From contig NZ_LT907782.1 of NCBI RefSeq assembly GCF_900206265.1, positions 1,426,001 to 1,490,000 on the forward strand: a stretch of 64,000 bases of DNA. The letters run 5' to 3'. The DNA is from Nitrosomonas ureae. Lineage in GTDB: Bacteria; Pseudomonadota; Gammaproteobacteria; Burkholderiales; Nitrosomonadaceae. The notes under the pieces were generated by a model. The model worked only from the letters and a program-made list of their open reading frames with translations, made no database searches and had not been told where the DNA came from. Position numbers and translations under genes: made by a program. Of this stretch, positions 18,393 through 24,949 are shown in pieces. The stretch's first letter is position 1. Every line of letters starts with the position of its first letter.

Positions 18393-19266
18393 ACTGGTGA
18401 GATGCGCATGTTAACGTTTTGAAGCCTTATGGTCAACCATGATATTCACTCAAATACAAAAAATCGTACTAAAAAATTTTTTGAGCCTTTATGGGCTTTG
18501 AGCAACTACCACAACAATATCGAACCGCATCTAATGTACAACCCTGTATTCAATCTACAGATATTCCCAGCATACCGTTAAACGTTAAAAAATATTCCAT
18601 GTGCCATCACAGTGATATATAACAGCGCAATCACTCGGAATAAGCAGAGCAGCTCATTAATTATTGAAATAAACTAGCGGTTAGTCATTAACAGGTATAG
18701 CAATTATCTTGCAGAGCGCAAATCAAGTAGCCTTGTTATTTATCTTTGCATGCTTCAACCCGTTCCCCCCATCCCCCGCTCGAATGCAGCCATTGGTACT
18801 CTAAAAAAAAATGATGTTACTGAGACTGTTGTTATATAAAACTTATTCAATCTTACGATCTCCCAATATTAATATACACTTAAAATGGATCAAGAAGACA
18901 CAACGATCTTCTTTTAACAACCCAATCCCCTTCCATCGACAGTGTTTATTCCATCAAAACTAAAAAAGTTCAAATCGTAATGAGAATTTCTCACAGCCTT
19001 CGACTATATAATTGAAACAAAGAAATAAGTTAATTTCATAATGCTTCTTGTTCTATACTTCATATAGAAAACCAATATACTTTGTTACAAAATTAAGTGA
19101 CAAAATAAAACGGCAACAATCGAATTATCTAATTAAAAATCTATGCGACCAGACCTTTAGCAAAAAACATCAACTTATCCCAATCATTTCTTTGTCCAGA
19201 GAATAAATATGCCCTCCAAATTAATTTTTAAATTATTGACAGCAGTTCTAATTTAATAAAACAATA
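18393..19266. other. Long A+T-rich intergenic region
   Basis: About 870 bases between the tRNA and the porin-like gene. No gene, repeat array or strong terminator was seen. It holds the tRNA promoter at its left and the porin promoter at its right. Confidence 0.45.
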
Positions 19267-20004
19267 GTGCGCTTAACACACTTAGAAAATATTGTTCTTG
19301 GGCTCGTATTATGGCTTACTAATCCGTTGAGCTGCTATGCTCAACTTAGTGGAAGCATTACTGGAACAACAGATTATTTTTGGCGTGGCTACTCGAAGAG
19401 TGACGGAAAACCAGCCGCACAAGCCAATATTGATCACGAATTCAAATCCGGTATCTACCTGGGCTCAAATATTACAACTGTTAATCTTTCCGACTTTGGA
19501 TTTGAAAATCGTTCTAATTTGGAATTCCGTCCTTACTTAGGTTGGACCTATAAGGTATCTGACAACTGGCGATTAAATGCTGAATGGACACGCTATATTT
19601 TTAATGGAAAAATATTCGATCAAAAGGCCGATTATAACGAATTTTATATCTCAGGACATTTTCGTGACTTACTGACATCCAATTTATTTTTTTCTGAAAA
19701 TAGCTATCAGCAAAATCACCCGGCATTCGGATATGAGATTATCGGACGTTACTCAATTACTAATTCAATCCAGATATCCAGTACCTTAGGCTATAATAAT
19801 CAGAAAAAAATACTGCAATATAATTATCTTTACTGGACTACCGGATTAACTTGGTATTTTGCCCGCAATATCGGTGTAGACGCTCGTTATTATGGAGCCA
19901 CACATACTGCAACAAAGTATTATGCGCCCTCATCGCCACATTGGGAGTTTCATCCACATGCCGTCGATGATCGTATATTATTCTCCTTTACCGTAGGATA
20001 TTAA
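19267..20004 (+). CDS. TorF-family putative outer-membrane porin
   Basis: A 245-residue protein with a Sec signal (about 1-26, ending CYA-QL) and alternating beta-strand composition typical of a small outer-membrane barrel. The N-terminus LSGSITGTTDYFWRGYSKSD is the hallmark of the TorF / TIGR02001-type family, followed by QANIDHEF-SGIYLGS. It ends in an aromatic-terminated strand ILFSFTVGY, the usual BAM recognition signal. The start is GTG. It would form a small channel; the substrate is unknown. It sits 128 bases ahead of the ECF sigma gene in the same direction, and might be in its regulon. Confidence 0.8.
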   Translation: MRLTHLENIVLGLVLWLTNPLSCYAQLSGSITGTTDYFWRGYSKSDGKPAAQANIDHEFKSGIYLGSNITTVNLSDFGFENRSNLEFRPYLGWTYKVSDNWRLNAEWTRYIFNGKIFDQKADYNEFYISGHFRDLLTSNLFFSENSYQQNHPAFGYEIIGRYSITNSIQISSTLGYNNQKKILQYNYLYWTTGLTWYFARNIGVDARYYGATHTATKYYAPSSPHWEFHPHAVDDRILFSFTVGY

Positions 20005-20132
20005 TTTTTCAAAATTACCTACCAAAATGAACCTTTTATTCAATATAAGTAATAAACGGGTAAATTTTAGTTGGCGCTGATATCAGTACAATAAATTTAA
20101 TAAATAAACATGCGGAAATACCCGACTTAAAA

Positions 20133-20714
20133 ATGATGCAAAAACCCTTTAGCTCGCTAGAACAACAGGCTAAGGAACGGCATTTGATCGCAGAAGCCGC
20201 GGCTGGCAATGGAAAAGCTTTCGAACAACTTTATCAGCTCTATTTTAATCGGCTATATCAATTTATTTTTCGTGTTAACAGGCACCATGATTGTATTGAA
20301 GAAATTATCAATGATGTAATGTATGTGGTTTGGGAAAAGGCCGCCACTTATGATCAAACGTGTCGCCCGTCCACATGGATTTTAGGTATCGCATATTTAA
20401 AATCATTAAAAAACGCCAAGCAGAATACAAAAAGAGAGGATGAGTCAGTTGAGTTTAATGATGAGCTGGATTATTTCCCTGACCGAAGAGCCCACTGGGT
20501 CTCGCAATTAGAAGACAGCAATTGGCTTGAAGCCGCGCTTGAAAAGCTATCGGCAGAACAACGTGCTGTTGTGGAAATGACATATTTTCAAGGATTGCAC
20601 TACAGTGAAATTTCAGAAATTATGCAATGTCCGGAAAATACAGTAAAAACCAGAATGTTTCATGCACGCAAAATTTTAGCTAAATTTTTTCTAGAGCTTA
20701 ATAGCAGGAGTTAA
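20133..20714 (+). CDS. ECF RNA polymerase sigma factor
   Basis: A 193-residue sigma-70 family member with only regions 2 and 4. Region 2 is seen at about 30-95 (FEQLYQLYFNRLYQFIFR, EEIINDVMYVVWEKA, then RPSTWILGIAYLKSLK); region 4 at about 130-185 (LEKLSAEQRAVVEMTYFQG, HYSEISEIMQCPENTVKTRM). It directs polymerase to a specific regulon and is expected to be held by the anti-sigma encoded three bases downstream. The next gene encodes a subtilase, making a three-gene unit. ECF genes of this kind usually autoregulate; no pair of matching promoter boxes could be confirmed by eye. Confidence 0.93.
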   Translation: MMQKPFSSLEQQAKERHLIAEAAAGNGKAFEQLYQLYFNRLYQFIFRVNRHHDCIEEIINDVMYVVWEKAATYDQTCRPSTWILGIAYLKSLKNAKQNTKREDESVEFNDELDYFPDRRAHWVSQLEDSNWLEAALEKLSAEQRAVVEMTYFQGLHYSEISEIMQCPENTVKTRMFHARKILAKFFLELNSRS

Positions 20715-20717
20715 CGG

Positions 20718-21428
20718 ATGGTATCCACGCAGATCAAAATGACCAGTCAAAGTGAACATCAAAAGGCCTGGAATCTTTTGCCTTGGTATATCAACCGATC
20801 GTTAGATCCTGTTGAACATGCGATTGTAAAAAATCATGTTAAGACCTGCATTACATGTAGAATTGAATTAAATCAACAAGAGCGACTGTTCAGGGATATA
20901 CAGCAAACTGATCTGCTACAACAAGTAGCACAAGCTTCTTTTGCCCAATTGAAAAAACGGATTGAAACACAACCAGAAGCTTATATTCCGAGCAAACACA
21001 CTGTTTTAAATAAAAATTTAATATTTTTTCCATTCCAAATTCGGTTTCTTAGTTTTGTAAAATACGCTGCCTTAGCAGCTAGCTTGCTATTCCTGGCAGC
21101 ACCGTTCATGCTTAGTTCTTTGACTGTACAGCCTGAAATAGAAGGTGCATACAGAACACTAGCCAGCTCAACTGAAAGCGTAAACAATACAAATAGCGTC
21201 GTTAGGATTGTTTTCGCAGATCACCCTGATTCAGAGCAAATTGACGCCGTAGTGCACAGCGTTTCAGGGCATATCATTAAAGGGCCTTCTCCAAATGGCG
21301 TTTACGAAGTTCGAATTGGCGATCATCAAACAGACTCTCAACAAATAAATGAAGCAATTTTTCGTTTGCGAGAGCATTCATCTGTTATATTTGCTGAGCT
21401 GGCTCAAGGATTATCGGTGTCTGAATAA
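20718..21428 (+). CDS. Zinc-type anti-sigma factor with periplasmic prodomain-like domain
   Basis: A 236-residue membrane anti-sigma. The cytoplasmic N-terminus has the zinc anti-sigma motif H40-x3-C44-x2-C47 (NHVKTCITC), preceded by AWNLLPWYINRSL. A single helix lies at about 112-132. The periplasmic part (about 160-232) reads VRIVFADHPDSEQID, then PNGVYEVRIGD and INEAIFRLREHSSVIFAELA, a beta-alpha-beta pattern like the propeptide domains of subtilases. A very similar pattern occurs in the N-terminus of the protease encoded next, so the two may interact or share ancestry. It starts 3 bases after the sigma gene. Release could come from periplasmic cleavage, but this is inference. Confidence 0.85.
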   Translation: MVSTQIKMTSQSEHQKAWNLLPWYINRSLDPVEHAIVKNHVKTCITCRIELNQQERLFRDIQQTDLLQQVAQASFAQLKKRIETQPEAYIPSKHTVLNKNLIFFPFQIRFLSFVKYAALAASLLFLAAPFMLSSLTVQPEIEGAYRTLASSTESVNNTNSVVRIVFADHPDSEQIDAVVHSVSGHIIKGPSPNGVYEVRIGDHQTDSQQINEAIFRLREHSSVIFAELAQGLSVSE

Positions 21429-21437
21429 GTTCATACT

Positions 21438-22766
21438 TTGATGTTAAATAGCCATATTAAAATCTTTCTGGGTATTGCCTTATTGTTAATGGCAATGGTT
21501 GTTGCTTTTTCGGTAAAAGCCGGGCGGGATTTATTTATCGATCCTGAAGTTTATGATAGCAAACAAACAAATCGCATCATATTAGTAACTTACACTGATA
21601 TGCACATCAACAGTATCCCCATTGGGATGTCCAATCTAACCTATCGTCAAAGAGGCAGTTATAGCAGTTCAACCTGGAGCAAAAGAATAGCATCCAATAT
21701 TGGAGATGACTACAAGTTAAAAATTCTTTCCCAATGGTCAATCAGTGAGATTGGTGAGCATTGTGTAGTATATGCAATTGATGAGGATCGTTCTATTGAT
21801 GAGGTCATTAATGCGTTAACCAAAGATCATCGCATCAGTAGCGTTCAAACAATGAGCACATTTCAGGTTATGGCAAATGGTGAATACACTGATCCTTATT
21901 ACCGCCTGCAAGTCAACATTCAATCAATGAATATCAATGAAATACATAAGCGGACTACCGGCAAAAATGTAACTATCGCAATCATTGATACCGGTGTGGA
22001 TACGAGACATCCTGACTTGGAAGGTCAGATTCAGCACAGTAAGAATTTTGTTGCACAAAAACAACTGGAACAACAACCATCTAGCGAACTTCATGGTACA
22101 GCAGTTGCTGGGGTTATTGCAGCCAAAGCGAATAATGGGGAAGGCATAGTCGGTATTGCTCCGGATAGCAATGTAATCGCACTAAAAGCTTGTTGGGAAG
22201 TTAAAGCGGGTAGCCTTGAAGCCATCTGCAATAGCTTTACATTAGCATTAGCAATCAACACAGCTATCGAGATGGAAGCAGATATTCTTAATTTAAGTTT
22301 AACTGGGCCGTATGATCCTCTCTTGGCTAGATTGATCGAAAAAGCCATTCAGCGCGGCATCATTATCATTGCCTCAAAAGCTGATAAAGACGACGAAGAA
22401 TCCGGATTCCCAGCTCAGCAACCTGGCGTCATCGGTGTCAGCAGCATTAATGCCAACAATATCATGCAATCGTTATACGAAGATCATCTTCTTACCGTAT
22501 ATGCACCGGGTGAAGAGATATTGACAACCTTACCCAAAGGTACCTATGACTTTGTTTCTGGAAATTCTTTAGCAACAGCACATGTTTCAGGTCTTACTGC
22601 TTTATTACTACAATTGAAGCGAGATTTAACGAATCATCAACTTTTCAATTTGTTAGTAAAAGCAAACGAGCCGAGCTTTCATAAAATATTCAGAAACCGC
22701 CAATTAAATAATGCAGTTAAACTCACATTGAAATCTGAAAAGCAAAGCAGAAACAGAGTTAATTAG
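21438..22766 (+). CDS. Secreted S8 subtilase-family protease
   Basis: A 442-residue protein with a signal peptide or anchor (about 8-28), an N-terminal prodomain-like part (about 45-150, with HCVVYAIDEDRSIDEVINAL) and a subtilase domain (about 170-410). The triad is intact: Asp184 in AIIDTGVD, His219 in LHGTAVAG and Ser377 in SGNSLATAHVSG. The normal oxyanion-hole Asn (usually in AAGN) is replaced: the equivalent strand reads IIIIASKADKDD, with Ala315 or Asp316 at that place. This may lower or change activity. The gene lies 9 bases after the anti-sigma gene, so it is probably co-transcribed with it and may process the anti-sigma or other envelope targets. Confidence 0.85.
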   Translation: MMLNSHIKIFLGIALLLMAMVVAFSVKAGRDLFIDPEVYDSKQTNRIILVTYTDMHINSIPIGMSNLTYRQRGSYSSSTWSKRIASNIGDDYKLKILSQWSISEIGEHCVVYAIDEDRSIDEVINALTKDHRISSVQTMSTFQVMANGEYTDPYYRLQVNIQSMNINEIHKRTTGKNVTIAIIDTGVDTRHPDLEGQIQHSKNFVAQKQLEQQPSSELHGTAVAGVIAAKANNGEGIVGIAPDSNVIALKACWEVKAGSLEAICNSFTLALAINTAIEMEADILNLSLTGPYDPLLARLIEKAIQRGIIIIASKADKDDEESGFPAQQPGVIGVSSINANNIMQSLYEDHLLTVYAPGEEILTTLPKGTYDFVSGNSLATAHVSGLTALLLQLKRDLTNHQLFNLLVKANEPSFHKIFRNRQLNNAVKLTLKSEKQSRNRVN

Positions 22767-24125: not shown

Positions 24126-24949
24126 CTATCCCCGCGGCAAAACCACGAGGAATCGTAAGTTGAAGAAGAAGTTTGTTAATTTTTCATACGGAATCATGTT
24201 ACTAATTCCGGTATGGGGTTCCACCGGATTATAGAAGTTAACGAATCTAGCCAGGCTGAGTTGACCATCATTCCGTGAGATAAAGATTGTTTGCTCATAC
24301 GCATCTGCAAAATGGTTTTGATGACGTGTTCAGCTTTTCCACTGGCTTGAGGATGCCGAACTCGCGTAAATTTCTGAGCAACTCTATTGGTTTTACAACA
24401 GGCAACAAAAGCATGATCCAGTGTTTCCTTATATTCCGTGCCATTATCAGAATAGGCACATTCAATCGTGTAAGGGCATTCCTCGATAACCTGCTTAAGA
24501 AAAATACCCGCAGAGTTTGGTGTCTTATCAGGAAGAATGACAGCATACAATTCCCGCGAAAAATCATCGATACCTACAAACAAGTAATTCTCGGCAAAGT
24601 TTTGGCCTCACCCTTGAGCAAAAGTAGGCATTCTGTATCAAAATGAACCATCTCACCGGAATAGCTTTTATTATAGCGACGTGCTGCCAATTTTTTCTTG
24701 ATCTCGAGAGAGAATTCAACCTTGCCAGGCGTTCATACCATACTTTGCCTGCAAGAAGCGCTTGTTGGTCGATTTCCGAGGAGAAAATTCCTGCCTCCTC
24801 GCCCGCTGCTCTATTACCTTGTAAATCTTAGGACGGGATACTCGAAACTTCTATGCAAGTGCTACAACCCTCCACTCACGGGCGCCGTACAAGTCGCCAG
24901 ATCTCCACTCGATCAAGGGGGATAGCCATGTTCTTTCGTGTATATTCAT
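24126..24949 (-). pseudogene. IS481-family transposase, broken
   Basis: The minus strand reads MNIHERTWLSPL, then after an in-frame stop KFRVSRPKIYKVIE, RQEFSPRKSTNKRFLQAKYG, and, following further breaks, an intact rve core (24194-24583): FVGIDDFSRELYAVILPDKT, CAYSDNGTEYKETLDHAF, and VRHPQASGKAEHVIKTILQM, containing the catalytic Asp, Asp and Glu region of IS481 integrase-like transposases. The C-terminus FVNFYNPVEPHTGI is in another frame and ends near 24126. At least four disabling changes are visible. It lies next to the other IS remnant. Confidence 0.82.

Follow-up and report, generated by a model that had tools for sequence, protein, structure and literature searches.

A zinc anti-sigma factor with a subtilisin-propeptide-like domain, encoded beside a subtilase in Nitrosomonas: a candidate surface-signaling module

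The release of sigma factors by proteolysis is a standard theme of bacterial signal transduction, and the matching of a site-1 protease to its anti-sigma factor is often unclear. In the Sigma-E / RseA / DegS / RseP system, the site-1 role falls to DegS, a PDZ-containing, trypsin-like protease that has no prodomain kinship with the anti-sigma factor. The Nitrosomonas ureae locus described here resembles that system in having a membrane anti-sigma factor with a periplasmic part that proteolysis is proposed to control, a dedicated periplasmic serine protease, and an RseP-type M50 protease encoded in the genome. It differs in that the protease of the operon is a subtilase of family S8 rather than a PDZ trypsin-like enzyme, and in that the anti-sigma factor bears a homologue of the protease family's own prodomain.

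That domain has its own described relatives. Subtilisin propeptides, stand-alone I9-type inhibitors such as POIA1, and the fervidolysin prodomain (PF22148) resemble it in their beta-alpha-beta-beta-alpha-beta fold, a Glu at the end of strand 4, and a tail of about 8 residues. Unlike these relatives, the domain here forms part of a transmembrane anti-sigma factor, and its gene is separate from that of the protease, which has a prodomain of its own. An ECF sigma gene with a subtilase neighbor is also found in ECF54, a group with subtilases nearby that has been proposed to work without an anti-sigma factor (review, PMC8999054). In contrast, a zinc anti-sigma gene directly follows the sigma gene here, and carries the prodomain homologue. 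By analogy only, the Phr precursors of Bacillus likewise combine a short precursor, a conserved C-terminal oligopeptide, control by an alternative sigma factor, and a subtilase, whereas the present host is Gram-negative and processing of its peptide is hypothetical. While proteolytic sigma release is known, we found no paper in the open-access literature searched that describes an anti-sigma factor with a protease prodomain, or a prodomain-bearing anti-sigma factor beside a subtilase. A mention in the ECF reclassification paper (10.1093/nar/gkaa1229) is possible.

In this study, we examine the sigma, anti-sigma and subtilase genes, their neighbors, and their predicted regulon in a window of 64,000 nucleotides of the N. 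ureae genome, together with related loci in other bacteria. A preliminary description of the operon had proposed that the anti-sigma factor carries a decoy prodomain that binds the protease, so that protease maturation controls sigma release. The presence of a prodomain-like anti-sigma half beside a subtilase suggests that the protease and the sigma switch control each other. If true, an anti-sigma factor that borrows the prodomain of a protease family would be a simple and directly testable answer to how site-1 proteases are matched. The module is found in several phyla, and the predicted two-site regulon of the Nitrosomonas genome makes the idea easy to test. The features considered are as follows.

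18755..18850, minus strand: 31-residue open reading frame ending GMGGTG, TTG start, TGA stop; predicted sigma target
18944..18972, minus strand: predicted ECF promoter for the 31-residue reading frame, TGAACT-N16-AATAAAC, from the sigma motif
19267..20004, plus strand: TorF-family (Gcw_chp) porin, putatively outer-membrane (TIGR02001, PF09694)
20028..20057, plus strand: predicted autoregulatory ECF promoter, TGAACC-N17-AATAAAC, from the motif upstream of sigma
20133..20714, plus strand: ECF sigma factor (open reading frame; TIGR02937 over cut-off)
20718..21428, plus strand: membrane zinc anti-sigma factor (open reading frame; zf-HC2 over cut-off in orthologues)
21195..21425, plus strand: predicted subtilisin-propeptide-like periplasmic domain and C-terminal tail of the anti-sigma factor (homologue profiles, AlphaFold2, Foldseek)
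21438..22766, plus strand: exported subtilase, S8 (PF00082; triad D184, H219, S377)
21573..21875, plus strand: predicted N-terminal prodomain of the protease itself (PF22148 in homologues, AlphaFold2, Foldseek)

The open reading frames and curated models agree on the identity and spacing of the trio as first described, with intergenic gaps of 3 and 9 bases in the list of reading frames. The host genome is 3.06 Mb, and the closest named relative at the operon is N. ureae Nm13, whose anti-sigma factor is 88% identical. The sigma factor scored well above the cut-offs of TIGR02937 (74.6 bits; cut-off 42.9) and PF08281 (61.6 bits; cut-off 25.7), and its region 2 scored 23.6 bits, slightly below the cut-off of 24. 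The anti-sigma factor contains an HxxxCxxC motif at 20835-20858, of which H40, C44 and C47 are invariant among close relatives, and a hydrophobic segment at about 21033-21110, read off the sequence. The zf-HC2 model gave 17.5 bits in the window protein against a cut-off of 22.2, which orthologues exceed. Judged by its motif and the putative transmembrane segment, the protein is of the zinc (class I) type, and its predicted partnership with the sigma factor follows the operon.

The C-terminal 77 residues of the window anti-sigma factor alone gave no Pfam match. When homologous C-terminal domains were scanned singly, 41 of 66 matched PF22148, the fervidolysin N-terminal prodomain (best E=1.2e-9). 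One full-length anti-sigma factor (L010) reached 36.6 bits against the PF22148 cut-off of 21, and several others gave 13.6-18.5 bits, below that cut-off. Alignments of the anti-sigma C-domain and of the protease N-domain matched each other with a profile-profile score of 25.8 (E=1.3e-4), whereas none of 60 column-permuted templates scored above 14.8. The AlphaFold2 model of the window domain is beta-alpha-beta-beta-alpha-beta (pLDDT 87, pTM 0.75). In a Foldseek search of the PDB, the subtilisin BPN' prosegment ranked first, and propeptides had the highest target-normalised TM among the matches (0.70-0.74); the E-values were weak (~5e-3), and other ferredoxin-like folds (ACT, S6, EF-1B) matched too. 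A PDB sequence search with the C-domain profile returned chance matches only. The window domain is therefore assigned as a prodomain through its homologues and predicted fold, without a Pfam match of its own, and by homology and modeled fold the periplasmic domain of the anti-sigma factor is a subtilisin propeptide homologue.

The N-terminal domain of the protease matched PF22148 in 14 of 50 homologues, and Foldseek with the AlphaFold2 model of the full protease placed unprocessed Pro-subtilisin E on top, over 380 columns, with fervidolysin among the top matches. Given the PF22148, profile-profile, AlphaFold2 and Foldseek results, the anti-sigma C-domain and the protease N-domain are both prodomain-like. 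The preliminary description had correctly quoted peptide stretches from the two domains, and had read a shared beta-alpha-beta pattern from them. The profile-profile score, the structure model and the fold search concur with that reading, and the common subtilisin-propeptide fold leaves the decoy idea standing.

The catalytic domain of the protease matched PF00082 with E=1e-40. Translation may start at TTG 21438 or one codon later, because ATG 21441 lies directly behind the TTG. Related loci contain one of two subtilase types: those with the window protease type are referred to as clade I, and those with the second type as clade II. All 50 clade-I proteases have kept the Asp/His/Ser triad, while the canonical oxyanion Asn is present in 1 of 25 clade-I sequences, as opposed to 10 of 10 clade-II sequences at the same column. 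Because this Asn is nearly always missing, activity of the clade-I proteases is not certain, and their catalysis, as judged from the alignment, may be specialized or weak. The protease had initially been called secreted. It is exported, and the term secreted is too specific since a lipobox-like motif occurs in 29 of 70 relatives of the window protease type. Three cysteines of the window protease, C109 in its own prodomain plus C252 and C264, are invariant in 50 sequences, so that one of them is unpaired or a disulfide between prodomain and catalytic domain is allowed.

To collect related loci, named genomes were scanned with a pattern taken from the N-terminal half of the anti-sigma factor only, and matches were then confirmed along the whole protein. 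A subtilase gene lies immediately 3' of the anti-sigma gene in 72 of the 78 named loci that have room downstream, and in 42 of these 72 the two genes overlap by 4 bases. The co-occurrence of anti-sigma C-domain homologues with subtilases is thus the rule, and again does not refute the decoy idea. Among the hosts of the module are beta-, gamma-, alpha- and zetaproteobacteria, as well as members of the Acidobacteriota and Nitrospirota. The anti-sigma profile matched in 14 of 250 genomes drawn at the order level and in 45 of 369 drawn at the class level, counts that include weak and N-terminal-only matches. Three loci (L024, L034, L122) have the domain without a subtilase; a Gfo/Idh/MocA oxidoreductase gene is next, and no protease. 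The anti-sigma factors of these three have a longer tail, ending in Trp. In two others (L045, L106) a caspase-like protein stands in place of the subtilase (L106:2496-4172; C14 confirmed by Pfam in L106), and the protease slot behind a prodomain-bearing anti-sigma factor may here have been swapped for another family. A candidate natural fusion of anti-sigma factor and subtilase (an open frame of 675-692 residues) was rejected: a stop ends the anti-sigma reading frame after 228-243 codons in 26 of 26 readable loci.

The end of the subtilisin propeptide, YVEEDHVAHAY, has a Glu at the aligned position and 8 more residues to its C-terminus, as checked in the sequence. In the anti-sigma factors, strand 4 ends in Glu in 45 of 51 clade-I domains, while clade-II proteins have Val or Ala at that position; the median C-terminal tail is 8 residues in clade I versus 3 in clade II. 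In the prodomain that clade-I proteases themselves carry, Gln takes the place of this Glu in 45 of 50 sequences. The Glu and the tail of about 8 residues in clade I fit a propeptide that would act in trans. A partial correlation of distance matrices gave 0.22 between the anti-sigma C-domain and the catalytic domain, no higher than the 0.27 obtained for the zinc domain.

Upstream of the operon, the TorF gene (TIGR02001 at 59.3 bits, cut-off 47.15; PF09694 also matched) is present in a single copy in the 3.06-Mb genome. TorF is a conserved fourth gene of the module: 42 of 60 clade-I loci have it adjacent, with the TorF gene upstream in Nitrosomonas and Methylococcaceae, and immediately 3' of the subtilase gene in Sphingomonas, Caulobacter, Dyella and Lysobacter. 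That TorF might be a target, as proposed earlier, is plausible from this adjacency, whereas a sigma motif before TorF was not found in the window.

The sigma gene of the window is preceded by TGAACC-N17-AATAAACG. A genome-wide scan (3.06 Mb) with the variable-spacer form TGAACYTTTN{12,15}AATWAAC returned exactly two matches (control 0), one before sigma and one before the divergent peptide gene, whose spacer of 16 lies outside the strict, fixed 17-base form. Among clade-I loci, 26 of 58 have the strict motif 5' of the sigma gene, where the remainder of the loci would predict 0.009 per region; in clade II the count is 0 of 11. Of 85 Nitrosomonas genomes, 35 have the operon, and the sigma motif was found in 29 of these; it was found in 3 of the 50 operon-free genomes. 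In relatives, other genes lie behind it: a cupredoxin or YncE-type propeller protein, and a MauG-like di-haem protein. From the genes behind the motif, the sigma factor therefore seems to regulate its own gene together with a small number of products, most of them exported. Also behind the motif are a secreted protein, about 124-136 residues long, that has the signature VKCEKRxNRSxVSVDGxNL and no clear family match (L196, L204, L206, L209, L214, L191, L192 and L072, in Nitrosomonas genomes and Methylotetracoccus), and a protein of 356-390 residues, QERLLKAKLAFTPRHLQLESVTTLL, without a Pfam or NCBIfam match (L205, L207, L208, L210, L055 and L058). In L082, two tandem short Ser-rich peptides (MKIKTNVRAGAGKQKRGSSTDSSSS...) are encoded from 6654 (plus strand), with the sigma motif in front of the first; by their appearance they may be secreted or modified.

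The second predicted promoter of the window belongs to a 31-residue peptide gene that is divergent from TorF and is the only instance of a GMGGTG-type C-terminus in the genome. An operon-adjacent reading frame ending in GxGGTG is present in 20 of 85 Nitrosomonas genomes. All 20 copies have the sigma motif upstream, 154-205 bases from the GxGGTG codons, and all have a possible start that would give a product of 29-32 residues; a recognizable ribosome-binding site precedes most of these starts. The G-x-G-G-T-G codons differ among these copies at third positions, synonymously. The peptide occurs in 21 of 35 operon-bearing and 1 of 50 operon-free Nitrosomonas genomes (Fisher p = 9e-10, for genomes that are not independent). 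None of the family libraries searched matched this conserved gene product; its gene is previously unreported and has been overlooked. Matches in G668, G682 and G689 (a second match in the last) are without promoter and were taken as chance. Variant C-termini are seen in L188 and L193 (GVGGTGCVC), and an internal GLGGTG in L215.

These observations are consistent with the following model. The anti-sigma factor would cross the inner membrane and hold the ECF sigma factor with its zinc domain on the cytoplasmic side. Its periplasmic domain would act in trans, as a propeptide tethered to the membrane, and dock on the catalytic domain of the exported subtilase from the same operon. At rest, the tail would lie product-like in the active site, and the protease and the anti-sigma factor would keep each other inactive. 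Protease that is freed or in excess would make the site-1 cut in the anti-sigma factor. RseP or another general site-2 protease would complete the cleavage and release sigma, which is then expected to transcribe the operon that encodes it and, divergently, the gene of the GMGGTG peptide, both from the predicted promoters. TorF, whose linkage is conserved, would be the outer-membrane partner. That the anti-sigma factor and the protease physically engage, and thereby control sigma, we infer and consider reasonably probable. As to the direction of control, the protease may activate sigma, the anti-sigma factor may restrain the protease, or both. The model as a whole, a self-contained surface-signaling module with a tethered trans propeptide and the subtilase as its site-1 protease, we regard as somewhat probable.

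The decoy prodomain of the preliminary description gains from the common fold, the 72 of 78 linkage, and the Glu and tail of clade I. As a universal role it is disfavored, because some loci are without a subtilase and clade II is without Glu and tail. The same loci, together with the two in which the domain stands beside a caspase-like protein, favor another account, in which the inherited propeptide-like domain is a generic periplasmic sensor of TorF, the peptide or a ligand, and the protease is a co-transcribed effector only. Clade II has kept the linkage despite its lack of Glu and tail, which counts against the model above, and co-evolution with the catalytic domain is not in excess over that of the zinc domain (0.22 versus 0.27). 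However, a generic sensor does not account for subtilase linkage in 72 of 78 loci with translational coupling, and would have no need for a Glu and a propeptide-length tail, yet clade I keeps both. We regard it as unlikely.

Two further accounts appear less likely still. Subtilisin propeptides catalyze folding in cis and in trans, and the anti-sigma and subtilase genes share an operon and overlap, so that the anti-sigma domain could be an intermolecular chaperone that folds the protease in trans, with sigma control reporting on protease biogenesis rather than activity. The protease, however, already has an intact prodomain of its own, and we give this account little credence. Alternatively, the locus could be a Gram-negative peptide-signaling circuit in which the true substrate of the subtilase is the sigma-induced 31-residue peptide: the subtilase could trim it to a GxGGTG oligopeptide, TorF could pass it through the outer membrane, and the anti-sigma propeptide could sense protease occupancy and so complete a feedback loop. 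Of the two sigma promoters predicted in the genome, one is that of the peptide gene, the C-terminus is fixed in 20 species-level genomes, and subtilases of Bacillus subtilis make a signaling peptide, CSF, which is produced by subtilisin, Epr and Vpr (Lanigan-Gerdes 2007, as related in PMC3601957). Against such a circuit, the peptide is confined to part of Nitrosomonas, and relatives have other exported proteins behind the same sigma motif; we regard the circuit as improbable.

At the other end of the operon, 3' of the subtilase gene, an apparent remnant of an integrase/transposase gene lies at 24194-24583 on the minus strand, its translation having been judged by eye.
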